Source: Haloarcula salina (lineage in GTDB: Archaea > Halobacteriota > Halobacteria > Halobacteriales > Haloarculaceae). From it: 64,000 nucleotides of DNA. Location of the stretch: the NCBI RefSeq assembly GCF_010119195.1, contig NZ_WRXL01000003.1:510168-574167 (forward strand). Direction: 5' to 3'. A model generated the notes under the pieces. It was not told the origin of the DNA, did no database searches, and saw only the letters and a list, made by a program, of their open reading frames with translations. Position 1 is the stretch's first letter, and each line of letters begins with the position of its first letter. The translations under genes were made by a program, and so were the position numbers. Of the stretch, positions 12,083-61,997 are shown piece by piece.

Positions 12083-14866
12083 TCAGGCGTTCGCGACGGT
12101 TCTGAGGATCTCCGGCGCGTCGTCGAGCGCGTCGTCGAGCGCCTCGGCCTCCGGGCCGCCGCCCTGCGCGAAGTCCGGCGGGCCGCCGCCGCCGCCGCCG
12201 ACGCGGCCGGCCAGTTCGCCGACGACCTCGCCGGCGTCGACCTCGACGCCCTCGGGGACGGAGACGACGAACTGCGCGCCGTCGAGCCCCGAGCCCAGCA
12301 CCGCGATCTTGCCCTGTTCGACGATCGCGTTGGCCTGCGCGCGCAGCTCGTCCATGTCGGCGTCGATGCGCTGGACGACGGCCGTCACGTCGCCCACGTC
12401 GACCTCCTCGCTGTCCGCGCCGCCGCTGGCGCGGGCCTCGGCGAGCTGTTCCTTGAGCTGTTCGATCTCCTTGCCGCGGGCCTTCCACTCGTCGAAGAAG
12501 CGCGCGGCGGTCTCCGGGACCGCCTCGGGGGCCACGTCGAGGATCTCCGACGCCTCCGTGAGCGCGTCCTCGGTGCGCTGGGTGGCCTCGATGGCCGCGT
12601 TACCGGCGGCGAACGACAGCCGGATGACGCCGTCCTGAATCCGCTCGGTCCCGAGCAGCTTGATGGTCCCGATGTCGCCGGTCCGGGCGACGTGCGTGCC
12701 GCCGCAGGCCTGCACGTCGTCGGCGACCTTGATGAGCCGGATCTGCTCGCCGGCCGGGATGCCGCCCTGGTAGAGGTCGAAGCCGTGGCGCTCCTCGGCC
12801 TCGTTGCGGTCCGGCCACTCCTGGGTGACCGCGACGTTGTCCTGGACGATCTCGTTGGCGAGCGCCTCGATCCGCTTGACCTGCTCGCGGGTGACCGACT
12901 CGTAGTGGCGGATGTCGATTCGCGAGGAGTCGGTCCCCTTCTGCGCGCCGGCCTGACGGACGTGCTCGCCGAGGATCTGCCGGGCGCTGTGGATGACGAG
13001 GTGCGTCGCGGTGTGGTGTTGCATCAGGCGCTTGCGCCGGGTGGCGTCGACCTGCCCGCGGACGAACTCGCCCTTGCCGGGGTCCTCGTCGCAGGTGTGG
13101 ACGATCACGTCGCCGTAGCGCTGTACGTCCGTCACTTCGGCGGTCACGTCGTCGGTCGACAGCGTCCCGTGGTCCGGTGGCTGGCCCCCGCCCTCGGGGT
13201 AGAACATCGTCTGGTCGAGCACCACGTCGAAGGTGTCGTCGTCGCGGTCGAACACCTCGAGGACGACCGCCTCGAACTCCGTCCGCTGCTGGTCCTCGTA
13301 GTAGAGCTGGTCGGTCTCGGGCAGCTCCGCGAGCTGGTCTGCGTAGGGCGTCTGTGTCTCCTCGGTGGTTCCGTCACCGCCGCCGTGGCGCTGGGCCACG
13401 ACCGAGTAGAAGTCGTCGGGCACGGCCACGTCGACGCCCTTCTCGGCGGCGATCTCCTCGACCATGTCCGGCTGGATGCCGTGGGAGTCGTACAGTTCGA
13501 CCAGTTCTTCGATCGGGATGGCCTCGCCGCGCTCGGCGTACTCCTCGGCCAACTGCCGGACGCGGCGACCGCCGCGGTCGAGCGTCTCGCGGTACTTCTC
13601 GACCTCGGTGCGGACGATGTCCCGAACTGTGTCGCGGTTCTCGTAGCCCAGTCGCTCGGCCTGCATGTCGACGAGTTCGTCTAGCGGCGCGTCGACGCCG
13701 ACCCCGTCGGCCAGCCGCTTCGTGCGCCGCAGGACCATCCGCGCGAGGTAGCCCGTCCCGACGTTCGAGGGGACGATGCCGTCGCCGAGCATGTACGCGA
13801 GCGTCCGGCAGTGGTCGGCGATGGCGTAGATGTCCTCTAGCGGGGCCATCAGGTCCCGAAGTTCCTCGACTTCGACGCCGACCTCGGCGGCGATGGTGTC
13901 GCGCTCGGCCTCGATGTCCTCGGCCTCGTCGATGTCCATCCGTCCCGCGAGCTTCGCGGCCTCGTGGACGACGGCCTCCTCCTCGTCGGTGAGCTCGATG
14001 CCGGCGTTGTCCTTGAGGAAGGCGATCATGTCGGGGTAGACCGCCTCGTACACCGTCGGCGTCCCCTGTGACATCCAGGTCCACCGCTCCAGCCCGTAGC
14101 CGGTGTCGACGATGTAGGTGTCCATCTCCGAGTAGCGGTTCCCGTCTTTCATCTCGTAGTCGCCGTCGGGGTCCTGCTCCATCGACATGAAGACGAGCGT
14201 CGCCAGCTCGGCCCCGCGGTAGATGACCTCGAACGCGGGTCCGGCGTTGCCCCCGCCGACCCACGGGTCCTCGATGAACGTGAGTTCGTCGGCGTCGGCC
14301 CCCAGTTCCTCGAACAGCTCGACGCAGTACTCGACGGTCTCGTCCTTCCAGTACACCTCGCCCTGGTAGGCGTACTGTTCGGGGTCTTCGAGGTCCTCGC
14401 GGGCGTTGAACGCGTGGTGGGCCATCATCTCGAAGGCCATCGTGTGCCGGCCGGTCTTGCCGACGTTGTCGATGTCCTGCATCCGGATGCAGGGCTGGCT
14501 GATGCACAGCGGGTTCGCCGGCGGCGGCGTCGTGCCGGAGGTGACGAGCGGCTGGAAGTCGTAGATGGACGCCTGAGTCAACAGCACGTCGTCGCGCCAG
14601 CGGTTGGCGGCGACCGGATAGGGTTCGATCCGCTCGTGGTCGCGCTCCTCGAAAAAGGAGAGGAACGCCTCGCGCATCTCCGTCAGCGAGTACGCCTCGT
14701 CGAACCCGGGGTTGTCGATGAAGTCGTACTCCGCGCAGGGAGGTTCGCCGCAGGTGTCCTGATCGGTCCGAGACCAGAACTTCGCGCCACAGGAGACACA
14801 CTCCTGGCGTCGGAATCCCGCCTCGTCGAAATAGTCGAGTTGGTAGGCCTCGTCGAGGTCGCTCAT
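12083..14866 (-). CDS. alaS: Alanyl-tRNA synthetase
   Basis: This 927-residue protein has the archaeal AlaRS layout: an N-terminal extension with a Zn-type Cys cluster (CVSCGAKF near residue 19 and a CGEPPC segment near 37), the class II catalytic core, the editing domain with the metal motif HHTATHL (about 615) and [13 protein letters not shown] (about 720), and a C-terminal C-Ala domain that is glycine-rich ([10 protein letters not shown]). It charges tRNA-Ala and clears mischarged Ser/Gly. Length and motifs agree with an intact cytoplasmic enzyme. It is transcribed away from the archaellin and RfcS genes upstream, in the same direction. Confidence 0.97.
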
Positions 14867-57131: not shown

Positions 57132-58127
57132 TCAGAACTCGACTGCCTCTCTGATACCGTCTTTGATGCGGGCGGGTTCGGGGAGGTAGTAGTCCTCCAG
57201 GGCGTACAGCGGGTAGGGCACGTCGAAGCCCGTGACGCGCGTGATCGGCGCTTCCTGGTACAGCAGCACCTCCTCCTGGATGGTGGCGATGATCTCGCCG
57301 GCCAGCCCGCCGGTCTTGGGGGCCTCGTGGACGACGGCCGCCCGTCCGGTCTTCTTGAACGACTCCACGATGGCGTCGGTGTCCATCGGCGAGAGCGTCC
57401 GCAGGTCGACCACCTCGGCGTCGATCCCCTCCTCGGCCAGTTCCTCGGCCGCTTCGAGCGTCGGCCGGGTCATCGCGCCCCAGGTGAACACCGACACGTC
57501 CGACCCCTCGCGGCGGGTCTTTGCCTCGCCGAGGTCGACCGTGTAGGACTCGTCGGGCACGTCCTCGCGGAACGACCGGTAGATGAGCTTCGGTTCGAGG
57601 AAGACGACGGGGTCGGGGTCGCGGATGGCCGCGGTGAGCAGCCCCTTCGTGTCCCGCGGGGTCGAGGGGACGACCACCTTCAGGCCGGGCTCGTGGACGT
57701 AGAACGCCTCTTTGGACTCGGAGTGGTGCTCCGGGGCGCGGATGCCGCCGCCGTAGGGCGCGCGGAGCGTCAGCGGGCAGTGGTACCGGCCCCGGCTCCG
57801 GGTCCGCAGGCGGGCGGCGTGACTGACGATCTGGTCGAAGGCGGGGTACATGAACCCCGAGAACTGGATCTCGGGGACCGGCCGCAGCCCGTAGGCCGCC
57901 ATGCCGATGGCGGTCCCGACGATGCCCGACTCCGCCAGCGGCGTGTCGACGACGCGGTCGCCGCCGAACTCCTCGTGGAGGCCCTGAGTCGCCCGGAAGA
58001 CGCCGCCGTTCTTCCCCACGTCCTCGCCCATCACGATCACGTCCTCGTCGCGCTCCATCTCGCCGTAGAGCCCGTCGCGGACGGCCTGTACCAGCGTGAG
58101 ACTCTGCGTGCTCGCCTCCGTACTCAT
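57132..58127 (-). CDS. pdhB: 2-oxoacid dehydrogenase E1 beta subunit
   Basis: This 331-residue thiamine-diphosphate enzyme subunit has the conserved [17 protein letters not shown] (about 34-50), [29 protein letters not shown] (about 60-88) and [14 protein letters not shown] (about 240-253). With E1 alpha it decarboxylates a 2-oxoacid. Its ATG overlaps the pdhA stop by 4 nt (ATGA), coupling expression of the two E1 chains. Confidence 0.95.
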
Positions 58128-59230
58128 TCCAGTAGCACCTCGTCGCCGTGTCGCTCGCGCAGTTCCTCTAAGTACTGCAACTGCTGTTCGAGCCGTCGCG
58201 GCATCTCCGCGTACACGTCCGCGAACATCTCCTCGGGCGTCGGCCGCTCGGTCGACTCGGCGGCGTCGATGGCGTCTGCCACTTCCGTCTTGACCGACTC
58301 GTCGATGGCCGCGACCCGCTCGTCGTCGAGGAGGCCGCGGTCCCGCAGGAACGCCTCCATCCGCGGGATGGGGTCCTTGCGCTTCCAGCGCTCGACCTCC
58401 GAGTCCTCGCGGTACACAGAGGGGTCGTCGGCGGTGGTGTGTGCGCCGAAGCGGTACTGCACCGCCTCGATCATCGTCGGGCGGCGCTGGCCCTCCGGCG
58501 GGTCCCGGGCCTTCTCGATCGCCTCGCGGGTCACCTGATACACCGCCAGCGGGTCCATGCCGTCGACCTGGATGCCGTCGAAGCCGTAGGCGTTGGCCTT
58601 CTGTGCGAGGGTCTCGCTGGCGGTCTGGCGCTCACGGGGCACGGAGATGGCCCACTGGTTGTTGTTACAGAAGAACACCGCCGGCACGTCGAACACGCCC
58701 GCGAAGTTCAGCCCCTCATGGAAGTCTCCCTCCGAGGTCGCGCCGTCGCCGAAGTACACGAGACACGCCGTGTCGTCGCCCCGGAGCTTCGCGGCCCACG
58801 CCGCCCCGGTCGCGTGCGGGATCTGCGTCGCGATGGGGACCGCGAGCGAGAACACCCGCACGTCCTCGGACGGCGCGTTGCCGGTCTCGTTGCCCATCCA
58901 GTACAGCAGGTCGTCCGAGAGGTCCCACCCCTTCACGTGGAGGGCGACGTGCTCGCGGTAGCTCGGGAACAGCCAGTCGTCCGCGTCGAGCGCGAGGGCG
59001 CTGCCGACCTGGGAGGCCTCCTGGCCCGACATCGGCGGGTAGGTCCCCATCCGGCCCTGCCGCTGGAGGCTCACCGCCCGCTGATCGAAGTGGCGGCCCA
59101 GCTTGAGGTAGCGGTAGATCTCGACCAGTTCGTCGTCCGAGAGATCGGGCACCGACGCCCCGTCGACCACCGTCCCGTCCTCGTCGAGCACCTGTACCCT
59201 GTCCGCGGGGTCGCGCTGGAGGACGCTCAC
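58124..59230 (-). CDS. pdhA: 2-oxoacid dehydrogenase E1 alpha subunit
   Basis: This 368-residue E1 alpha has the ThDP motif [36 protein letters not shown] (G-D-G ... N-N, about 157-192) and [14 protein letters not shown] near 260-273. The GTG at 59230 (VSVLQRDP) is preferred: it has the best ribosome site of this area, AGGGAGG seven nt upstream, and matches the family N-terminus. The longer frame runs into the intergenic region. It heads the pdhABC run. Haloarchaea use pyruvate:ferredoxin oxidoreductase for pyruvate, so the natural 2-oxoacid of this complex is uncertain (branched-chain oxoacids are likely). Confidence 0.93.
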
Positions 59231-59362
59231 CGGAACCGCCTCCCTAGTGACATACGTCAACTGTTCACTCGCGCGACGCTTAGTGCTTTCGCGGCGGCGA
59301 GCCCGCGGGCCCACGAAGGTATTCCGTGACGGACCACGGGACGCGACGGTGGATGTTCATCG
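59231..59362. other. Spacer between pdhA promoter and the Tat fragment
   Basis: About 130 nt containing the pdhA ribosome site (AGGGAGG near 59238-59244) and its upstream promoter sequence, which lacks a strong TATA match. No coding region is supported. Confidence 0.4.
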
Positions 59363-59529: not shown

Positions 59530-60300
59530 TCAGTCCGCGAGCGTCTCCAGCGCGACCGGGTCCAGTCCCGCGTCACCGGCCGCGTCGCGGAGTACCGGAA
59601 CGCGCTCGCGGAGTTCCGCCGGCGCGTGGCTGTCGGTGCCGAGGACGAACTCGACGCCCGCCTCGCGGAACACGTCGAGGACCGCCGGGTCGGGGTGGAC
59701 GCGGCCCAGCGACCGGTGGACGCGGCCCGCGTTGAGTTCGGGGACCGTCCGCGAGTCCGCGAGTGCGGCGGCGACGCGCTCGTAGTCCTCGCGGTTGGTG
59801 TACCGACGGAGCGCGTCCATCCGCTCGGGGAGGTCGAGGTGGCCGAGCACGTCGAACAGCTCCGACTCGACGAGCGAGACGACGGCGTCGTAGTACCGCT
59901 CGACGGCCGCGCGCCGGTCCGCGCCGTCGAGGGCGGCGTACTGGCTGGCGCTGGTGTAGTCGTACGGTCCCGCGAAGTGGACGCTGCCGATGGTGTAGGC
60001 GAACTCCGCGCGGTCGAGGAACGCCGCGAGGCGCGCCTCGTCGCCCTCGACGTAGCTCACCTCCGCGGCGTCGTACAGCCGCAGGGCGGTCTCTGTCCGC
60101 GCCTCGTCGATGACCGCCCGTCGGTCGGCGTACGTCTCGACGAGGTCGTAGCGCTCGCGCCGCCCGAACGGGTCCTCGGTCACGATGCAGTGGTCCGTGA
60201 GCCCGAGGCCGTCGAGCCCGGCGGCCTCGGCGGCCGCGACCATCTGGCTGAGCGCCGACCCGTCCGAGAAGGTCGTGTGGGCGTGGCCGTCGGCGTCCAT
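59530..60300 (-). CDS. PHP-domain phosphoesterase
   Basis: This 256-residue protein has the PHP metal-binding motifs in order: HAHTTFSDG (residues 6-14), LTDHCI (about 34-39), IGSVHFA (about 104-110), LGHLDLP (about 152-158) and GTDSHAP (about 221-227). It is a member of the histidinol-phosphatase/DNA-polymerase-beta C-terminal class and hydrolyses a phosphate ester with a tri-metal centre. Histidinol phosphatase is a possible role, since haloarchaea need one and hisB here is monofunctional, but it is unproven. It follows comB by 3 nt. Confidence 0.88.
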   Translation of the reverse strand: MDADGHAHTTFSDGSALSQMVAAAEAAGLDGLGLTDHCIVTEDPFGRRERYDLVETYADRRAVIDEARTETALRLYDAAEVSYVEGDEARLAAFLDRAEFAYTIGSVHFAGPYDYTSASQYAALDGADRRAAVERYYDAVVSLVESELFDVLGHLDLPERMDALRRYTNREDYERVAAALADSRTVPELNAGRVHRSLGRVHPDPAVLDVFREAGVEFVLGTDSHAPAELRERVPVLRDAAGDAGLDPVALETLAD

Positions 60301-60303
60301 CGC

Positions 60304-61053
60304 TCACTCGCCGCCGTCGCTCACGTCGACCAGCCGCTGGTCGACGAGCTTCGGGACGACCTCGCGGCTGTCGAACGCGAGGGTGTACTCGTAGAGGTCG
60401 GTCCGCTTGACCTGCGGCTTGCGCTCGTACTTCGGCCCCTTCCCGAACGTGACCATCTCGCGGAAGACCGCGCGCTGCGCCTCCGTCGGCGGGCGTTCGT
60501 GGAGGTGGCGCGCGATGTACAGCGCCCCAGCGAGGTCCTCGGGGGAGGGCTTGCCGTTCGACCCCGCGCCGACGAAGTACGTCCGGCGGTCGCTGTCTCT
60601 GAGGTGATCGGCCAGGGCCTTGCCGTTGGTCAGCCCGCCGACGTACACGTCGACGTCGTCGCCGCCCGCGAGCCTGAGGTCGGTGACCGCGTTGCCGCCG
60701 TTGGTCGAGGTCATCGCCGTCGGTCGGCCGGCCACGTCCACGTCCTGTACGAAGCTCGGTGAGTTGAAGAAGTCGTAGCCCTCCTCGCCCTCGTAGTTCG
60801 GCCCGGAACTGCCGCCGATCTTCGCGCGCGGATGCTCGGCCTTGAACTCGGGTTCGTTCCCACGCTCCTCGGTGATGAAGATGTACTCGGCCCCGTTGGC
60901 GAACAGTTCGGGAACCGTCGTCGAGAACTGGGCCACGTCGACGACGACGTAGTTCCCCGGGTCGGGGTCGTCGGGGAGCTGTGCCCGCGCCGGGATCATC
61001 GTCTCCAGCAGTTCCGCTTCGAGGTCGTCTTCGCCGTCGGAAATCAGGCGCAT
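60304..61053 (-). CDS. comB: ComB-family protein (2-phosphosulfolactate phosphatase fold)
   Basis: This 249-residue protein matches ComB, the Mg-dependent phosphatase that turns 2-phosphosulfolactate into sulfolactate in coenzyme M synthesis of methanogens. Family features seen are VVVDVAQFSTTVPELFANGAEYIFI (about 36-60), STNGGNAV (about 115-122), YVGGLTNGKALADHL (about 136-150) and VGAGSNGKPSPEDLAGALYIA (about 161-181). Haloarchaea are not known to make coenzyme M, so substrate is unknown. The ATG at 61053 is used; MIPARAQ (19 residues later) is an alternative. A 14-nt palindrome lies in its promoter. Confidence 0.85.
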   Translation of the reverse strand: MRLISDGEDDLEAELLETMIPARAQLPDDPDPGNYVVVDVAQFSTTVPELFANGAEYIFITEERGNEPEFKAEHPRAKIGGSSGPNYEGEEGYDFFNSPSFVQDVDVAGRPTAMTSTNGGNAVTDLRLAGGDDVDVYVGGLTNGKALADHLRDSDRRTYFVGAGSNGKPSPEDLAGALYIARHLHERPPTEAQRAVFREMVTFGKGPKYERKPQVKRTDLYEYTLAFDSREVVPKLVDQRLVDVSDGGE

Positions 61054-61077
61054 ATCCGGGAGTTCCCTCCACCACAG

Positions 61078-61091
61078 TTAGTTCGAACTAA
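61078..61091. promoter_or_regulatory. Perfect 14-nt palindrome in the comB promoter
   Basis: TTAGTTCGAACTAA is identical on both strands. It lies between the leftward TATA-like GGTATAGAG (61095-61103) and the comB ATG (61053), covering the expected transcription start. The only gene it can control is comB with the PHP gene behind it, because the other flank (ecfT) ends here. Confidence 0.65.
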
Positions 61092-61187
61092 GATCTCTAT
61101 ACCGGGCTGCATACGGCTATATAGCGGTCTGGAGTCGGCAGACTGCCGGGCGGTCTCGGGAGCGCCGGACGCTGGCGGCCGCCACCC

Positions 61188-61997
61188 TCACAGCGCGACG
61201 GCGATGACCGCCACGACGGCCAGCGACCCGGCGAAGAACCCGACGTCGCGGGGCCGGACCCGCATGTCGGCTAGCTGTAGCTCCTTGCTCGCCTCGTCGT
61301 GCAGGGAGTGAGAGAACCCCCGCGTCTCCATCGCCTCGACGGTGACGCGGCTGCGCTTCGCGACGTTGAAGATCATCGGGTAGAACGCCCGCATCGACGT
61401 CTTCAGCAGGTAGGCGTAGTGTCGCCACCGGAAGCGGCCCGGCGACGACGGCGCGGCGCTCCGGAGGCGATAGGCGTTGACGAGGTCGTGGTACTCCTCG
61501 AACAGCACCGGCAGCATCCGGTAGCCGTACGTGATGAGGAACGTGAACTGCCGGGGGATGCCGAGGCTCCGGAGGCCGCGTGCGAGCGTCTTCGGGCCCA
61601 TGCTGGAGAAGACGGCCAGGCTCGACACCGAGATGATCGTCAGCTTCAGCGTGAACGGGATCAGCGCCCGGATCGCGGCCAGCGGGTCGCCGGTGAAGGC
61701 GGTCACGACGGCGTACGACGCCAGCGTCGAGGCGACGGTGAACGCCATCAGCGCGACCAGAAAGAGGCTCACCCGGGAGGCGTACGCGAGCAGCGAGACG
61801 AACGCCAGCAGGGCCAGCAGGACGTCCACGTCGTAGAACAGCCACGGGACGAACAGGAAGACGACGTACCACAGCAACAGCACGCGTGGGTCGAGGCGGT
61901 GCAGGAACGACCCCTCGTTCTCGTAGGCCGTCTTCAGCAGGTCGTTCTTGATGGCGTCGACCGAGGTCGCGTCCCGGAGCCCGTCGAGGGAGGTCAT
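61188..61997 (-). CDS. ecfT: ECF transporter transmembrane subunit EcfT (CbiQ family)
   Basis: This 269-residue protein has five to six membrane helices and the cytoplasmic coupling helices that hold the ATPase, including LARGLRSLGIPRQF (about 146-159) and SRVTVEAMETRGFSHSL (A/E-x-R-G type motif, about 225-241). It links the double ATPase to the substrate-binding S subunit. Its ATG overlaps the ecfA stop by 4 nt. The tail 'ELQLADMRVRPRDVGFFAG' leads into the last helix. Confidence 0.9.
   Translation of the reverse strand: MTSLDGLRDATSVDAIKNDLLKTAYENEGSFLHRLDPRVLLLWYVVFLFVPWLFYDVDVLLALLAFVSLLAYASRVSLFLVALMAFTVASTLASYAVVTAFTGDPLAAIRALIPFTLKLTIISVSSLAVFSSMGPKTLARGLRSLGIPRQFTFLITYGYRMLPVLFEEYHDLVNAYRLRSAAPSSPGRFRWRHYAYLLKTSMRAFYPMIFNVAKRSRVTVEAMETRGFSHSLHDEASKELQLADMRVRPRDVGFFAGSLAVVAVIAVAL

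Follow-up and report, generated by a model that had tools for sequence, protein, structure and literature searches.

A pho-box-like element shared with pstS promoters upstream of the comB–PHP operon of Haloarcula salina

The comB–PHP operon and its conserved promoter element

Comparison of haloarchaeal promoters indicates that the functional element upstream of the comB-like gene of Haloarcula salina and its partner gene, which encodes a PHP-domain protein, is very likely a haloarchaeal pho box and not the perfect palindrome found in the same intergenic region, and that comB–PHP would be a phosphate-starvation operon. Because comB has a promoter element in common with the phosphate-uptake genes of haloarchaea, a shortage of phosphate may be what turns on this gene and its partner. 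The features concerned, all but the last of which lie in the 64,000-nt stretch analysed (the window), are collected in Table 1.

Table 1. Features of the comB–PHP region and candidate regulators encoded at the pst loci
Feature	Position	Strand	Remarks
comB-like gene	60304..61053	-	PF04029 phosphatase family, 249 aa; Pfam 77.4 bits
PHP-domain, histidinol-phosphatase-like gene	59530..60300	-	256 aa; Pfam PHP; probably in an operon with comB
14-nt palindrome TTAGTTCGAACTAA	61078..61091	.	present; dyad symmetry not conserved; judged incidental
pho-box-like element TATAGAGATCTTAGT	61087..61101	-	-48 to -34 from comB start; conserved in 33/33 orthologues; top pstS-matrix match
Upstream TATAG-like repeat CTATATAG	61117..61124	-	about -71 to -64; information peak in comB promoters; similar repeat in pstS promoters
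TATA box position	61078..61081	-	-28 to -25; here a weak CTAA; orthologues have TTWW at the same distance
AbrB/MazE–PhoU fusion proteins	L269:3807-4940, L270:9681-10700, L270:1681-2739		pst loci; two divergent from pstS

The first-pass annotation had placed the comB start at 61053, read comB and PHP as a two-gene unit and proposed a cis-regulatory site just upstream, and in each of these respects it was right: the start is as described and lies on the minus strand, the PHP gene follows after a gap of 3 nt, such that the two look like one operon, and a conserved element precedes comB in every orthologue of at least 57% identity. This element, TATAG-N2-CTCTTAG-Y, is non-palindromic and direct-repeat-like, and TTAGTTCGAACTAA overlaps only part of it. 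We read the upstream regions of 58 comB homologue loci. With one locus (L086) set aside, each of the 33 orthologues with 57% identity or more had CTCTTAG or a close variant (CTCATAG, CTCCTAG, ATCTTAG), its first base lying at -41 in 27 of them and at -42 in six, and the sequence around it was unrelated among them. For four loci these distances are counted from the later of two closely spaced in-frame GTG codons. Most ComB homologues of about 50% identity among the 58 loci were without the element.

In 21 non-redundant comB promoters, information peaked at -48 to -44 (TATAG, its ATA almost without variation), at -41 to -34 (CTCTTAGY) and at -28 to -25 (TTWW). A weaker GA peak lay at -11/-10 and a block resembling TATATA at about -70 to -64, and the majority of the remaining columns were close to background. 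The element thus lies directly upstream of BRE/TATA, as a haloarchaeal pho box does. The peaks agree with the TATA and -10 consensus of haloarchaea and with the reported prevalence of leaderless transcripts in Haloferax volcanii (PMC4983044), and transcription of comB probably begins at the start codon or close to it, from a leaderless-type promoter. In H. salina itself the TATA position is covered by the right half of the palindrome. An RNA element before comB was also considered and was rejected, as no Rfam family matched within 60900-61400.

Sharing of the element with pstS promoters

Our genome-wide statements are based on pattern searches. In 392 genomes we searched for the strict pattern followed at the appropriate distance by a start codon. 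The number of matches was not above that of a reversed-pattern control; the evidence lies in the identity of the targets. These were comB genes, a pstS-like gene for a phosphate-binding protein and, in several genomes, genes for low-molecular-weight phosphatase family proteins, together with those for a calcineurin-like phosphoesterase, receiver-domain proteins and small cysteine-rich proteins, the start being nearly always +46 to +49 from ATAG. Receiver-domain-like proteins of about 140 aa in three genomes (L201, L202, L203) have the same element upstream at the same spacing. A motif private to comB was rejected: within the genus the strict pattern found mainly comB, but wider scans gave pstS and phosphatase families. 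The view that the site controls ‘only’ comB–PHP holds in that the two genes look like one operon, but not in that the site is peculiar to it, as pstS genes share the element.

The phosphate-linked targets led to a direct test of pstS promoters, pstS being located in 59 of 60 relatives. Twenty-five of the 30 first pstS promoters carried TATAG-N2-CTAATAGT, -ATCATAGT, -CTCATAGT or a closely related string, in most cases between -47 and -50. Farther upstream there was usually a TATATAG repeat, and the TATA position was taken by TACTTAT or similar. Among 20 further pstS promoters, mostly of second copies, about half had the element and the others a different motif. The pstS promoters L222, L236, L245, L253, L254, L258, L259 and L262, which are without the element, carry CTATTATAAACG-N-GTTTAAT or a close variant.

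Within the H. salina genome, pstS on contig C7 is preceded by TATAGCGCTAATAGT and the second pstS, on C11, by TAGAGGTATCTTAGC, both at -47, and the comB element therefore recurs with the same spacing in the organism's own pst promoters, as membership of the pho box class would predict. A relaxed pattern with a start codon gave three matches in this genome, one before pstS, one before comB and one before an unassigned gene. Trained exclusively on 19 pstS sites, a matrix scored the comB site at 22.6 bits, the first of approximately 128000 window positions (the next scored 9.7), and in 37 of the 58 homologue loci its best match lay upstream of comB. No second pho box was found in the window by pattern and pstS-matrix scans.

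In bacteria, the pho box of the two-component regulator PhoB is a repeat-type site before pst and phosphatase genes; the comB element resembles it in both respects, but differs in sequence. The GvpE-responsive UAS of gas vesicle promoters likewise adjoins BRE on its upstream side and is made up of two short conserved blocks at a constant distance from each other, but differs from the comB element in sequence, in its regulator (GvpE) and in size, having two 8-nt blocks with 4 nt between them (PMC4390858). Closer to the present case are the pho boxes of the H. salinarum pst1 and pst2 promoters, likewise upstream elements of haloarchaeal pst promoters: they are reported to be essential if starvation for phosphate is to induce transcription, and PhoU regulators are reported to bind them (Furtwaengler et al. 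2010, as cited in PMC6560208). Unlike these, the element described here stands before the comB–PHP operon; its sharing with pstS suggests that it is the same pho box.

Alternative readings of the promoter

In the first-pass annotation, the regulatory site was the palindrome. It lies 24 nt upstream of the comB ATG and would, on this reading, be the operator for a dimeric comB-specific regulator. The perfect 14-nt dyad is present as described, a palindrome as long as this in the 134-nt comB intergenic region has a local P of approximately 0.014, the genome-wide scan that had been proposed finds TTAGTTCGAACTAA as a single copy in the 3.79 Mb genome even with up to two mismatches, and a sister species retains six of the seven pairs at the homologous 14 positions. 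We nevertheless regard an operator here as highly improbable. Dyads of such length occur at chance level, palindromes of at least 14 nt in the window numbering nine against 13.6 expected in first-order Markov simulations (range 6–25), and the palindrome is not, as had been stated, the longest uninterrupted dyad, since an 18-nt perfect palindrome, CCTGCATCCGGATGCAGG, lies at 14476-14493. Footprinting was decisive: at the homologous positions of 31 other comB orthologues, a mean of 1.52 of the seven pairs was retained compared with 1.85 in control windows of the same promoters, so that the dyad is not conserved upstream of related comB genes and the regulatory palindrome was rejected. In addition, the left half of the dyad coincides with the 3′ part of the conserved element, and the right half (CGAACTAA) lies over the TATA position; a perfect palindrome before comB is probably coincidence.

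Two other readings concern the conserved element itself. If TATAG at 61097-61101 were the TATA box, as the annotation of a ‘TATA’ at 61095-61103 (GTATAGAGA on the minus strand) implied, the leader would be about 20 nt long and CTCTTAG would be an operator between the TATA box and the start. TATAG is indeed the best TATA-like string in the H. salina comB promoter, and a GGAGG stretch lies ahead of the start codon, but we consider this arrangement rather unlikely given the second T/A-rich block at -28 to -25 and the enrichment of A at -10 in the orthologues and in pstS promoters, which together are the leaderless signature, the nearly invariant distance to the start codon and the leaderless nature of 72% of H. 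volcanii coding transcripts (PMC4983044); the string corresponds to the 5′ half of the conserved element. It is less likely still that the element marks a class of promoters in general (e.g. those of a particular TFB/TBP pair), as an upstream or core-promoter signal with no specificity for phosphate. Its occurrence before genes of unknown role that encode receiver-domain and cysteine-rich proteins would suit such a signal, but two of only three relaxed matches in the whole genome precede pstS and comB, and most of the other identified targets belong to phosphate-related families. We retain the pho box as the preferred reading.

Proposed regulation, gene neighbourhood and function

According to our model, the pho box, together with the TATAG-like repeats extending to about -70, would form the control site of comB–PHP, directly upstream of BRE/TATA in a promoter whose transcript would begin at the start codon or close to it. 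On phosphate starvation a phosphate-signalling regulator would act at this site, and more transcription of two intracellular phosphatases, ComB and PHP, would follow. The genome encodes three fusions of AbrB/MazE-type and PhoU domains across both of its pst loci, and these proteins, encoded beside the pst operons, are natural candidates and the most plausible regulator. In another genus (g2), pst, phoU and a gene for an AbrB-domain protein are followed immediately by comB, and a related site precedes the latter at about -52.

The score of ComB against PF04029 (77.4 bits) is well above the gathering score of 26.4, but its score against the NCBIfam equivalog TIGR00298 (37.4) falls short of the cutoff of 175 and those against the PRK00886 models are also far below cutoff, so that 2-phosphosulfolactate should not be assumed to be its substrate. 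The solved ComB structure 1vr0 is a distant match. The PHP protein resembles histidinol phosphatase, has a solved relative (2yxo) and scores below the cutoff of TIGR01856. To our knowledge, haloarchaeal ComB-like proteins have no established substrate, and a literature search of limited scope gave nothing relevant on ComB under phosphate limitation. The expectation that the site would hint at ComB function is supported, as an element common to pstS points to a phosphate role, and phosphate scavenging would be a fitting task for an operon that encodes two phosphatase-family proteins.

Homologues of comB occur, patchily spread, in 78 of the 392 genomes of the order, and also in named Haloarcula, Halosimplex and Halorubrum species. 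Three of them, possibly decaying copies, have one in-frame TGA each (G330:C4:108598-109311, G284:C1:1285882-1286559 and G388:C1:471539-472195). The operon has genes for a 2-oxoacid dehydrogenase E1 (alpha and beta) on one side and, on the other, those for an ECF transporter followed by a lipoyl synthase gene (window 57132-59314; L132:3162-6925). A lipoate link via the neighbouring lipA and 2-oxoacid dehydrogenase genes is possible; this neighbourhood does not account for the comB promoter element.

An ECF transporter adjoins comB in many genomes, and in others a xylose-isomerase-like TIM-barrel protein takes the place of PHP in the ECF–ComB set. A 21-nt stretch holding CTATATAG recurs with 19 of 21 positions upstream of the ECF S-component gene of the same genome, compared with at most 15 in random windows, which is suggestive of co-regulation of the transporter with comB. 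A CTATTATAAGCG block, similar to CTATTATAAACG-N-GTTTAAT, also precedes this S-component gene. In two other genomes the TIM-barrel gene of the cluster has a strong pho-box-like site upstream, with spacing that is not canonical. From this site and the shared 21-nt stretch we tentatively propose, as a somewhat doubtful possibility, that the ECF transporter, ComB and either PHP or the TIM-barrel protein make up a so far undescribed haloarchaeal phosphate-starvation system, which would import a phosphorylated small molecule and release its phosphate intracellularly.

Placing comB–PHP in the phosphate-starvation regulon would supply a concrete growth condition under which to seek ComB function, and favours a role in phosphate scavenging over one in coenzyme M synthesis. 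The aligned pho-box consensus may in turn serve in the search for further members of this regulon across Halobacteria.
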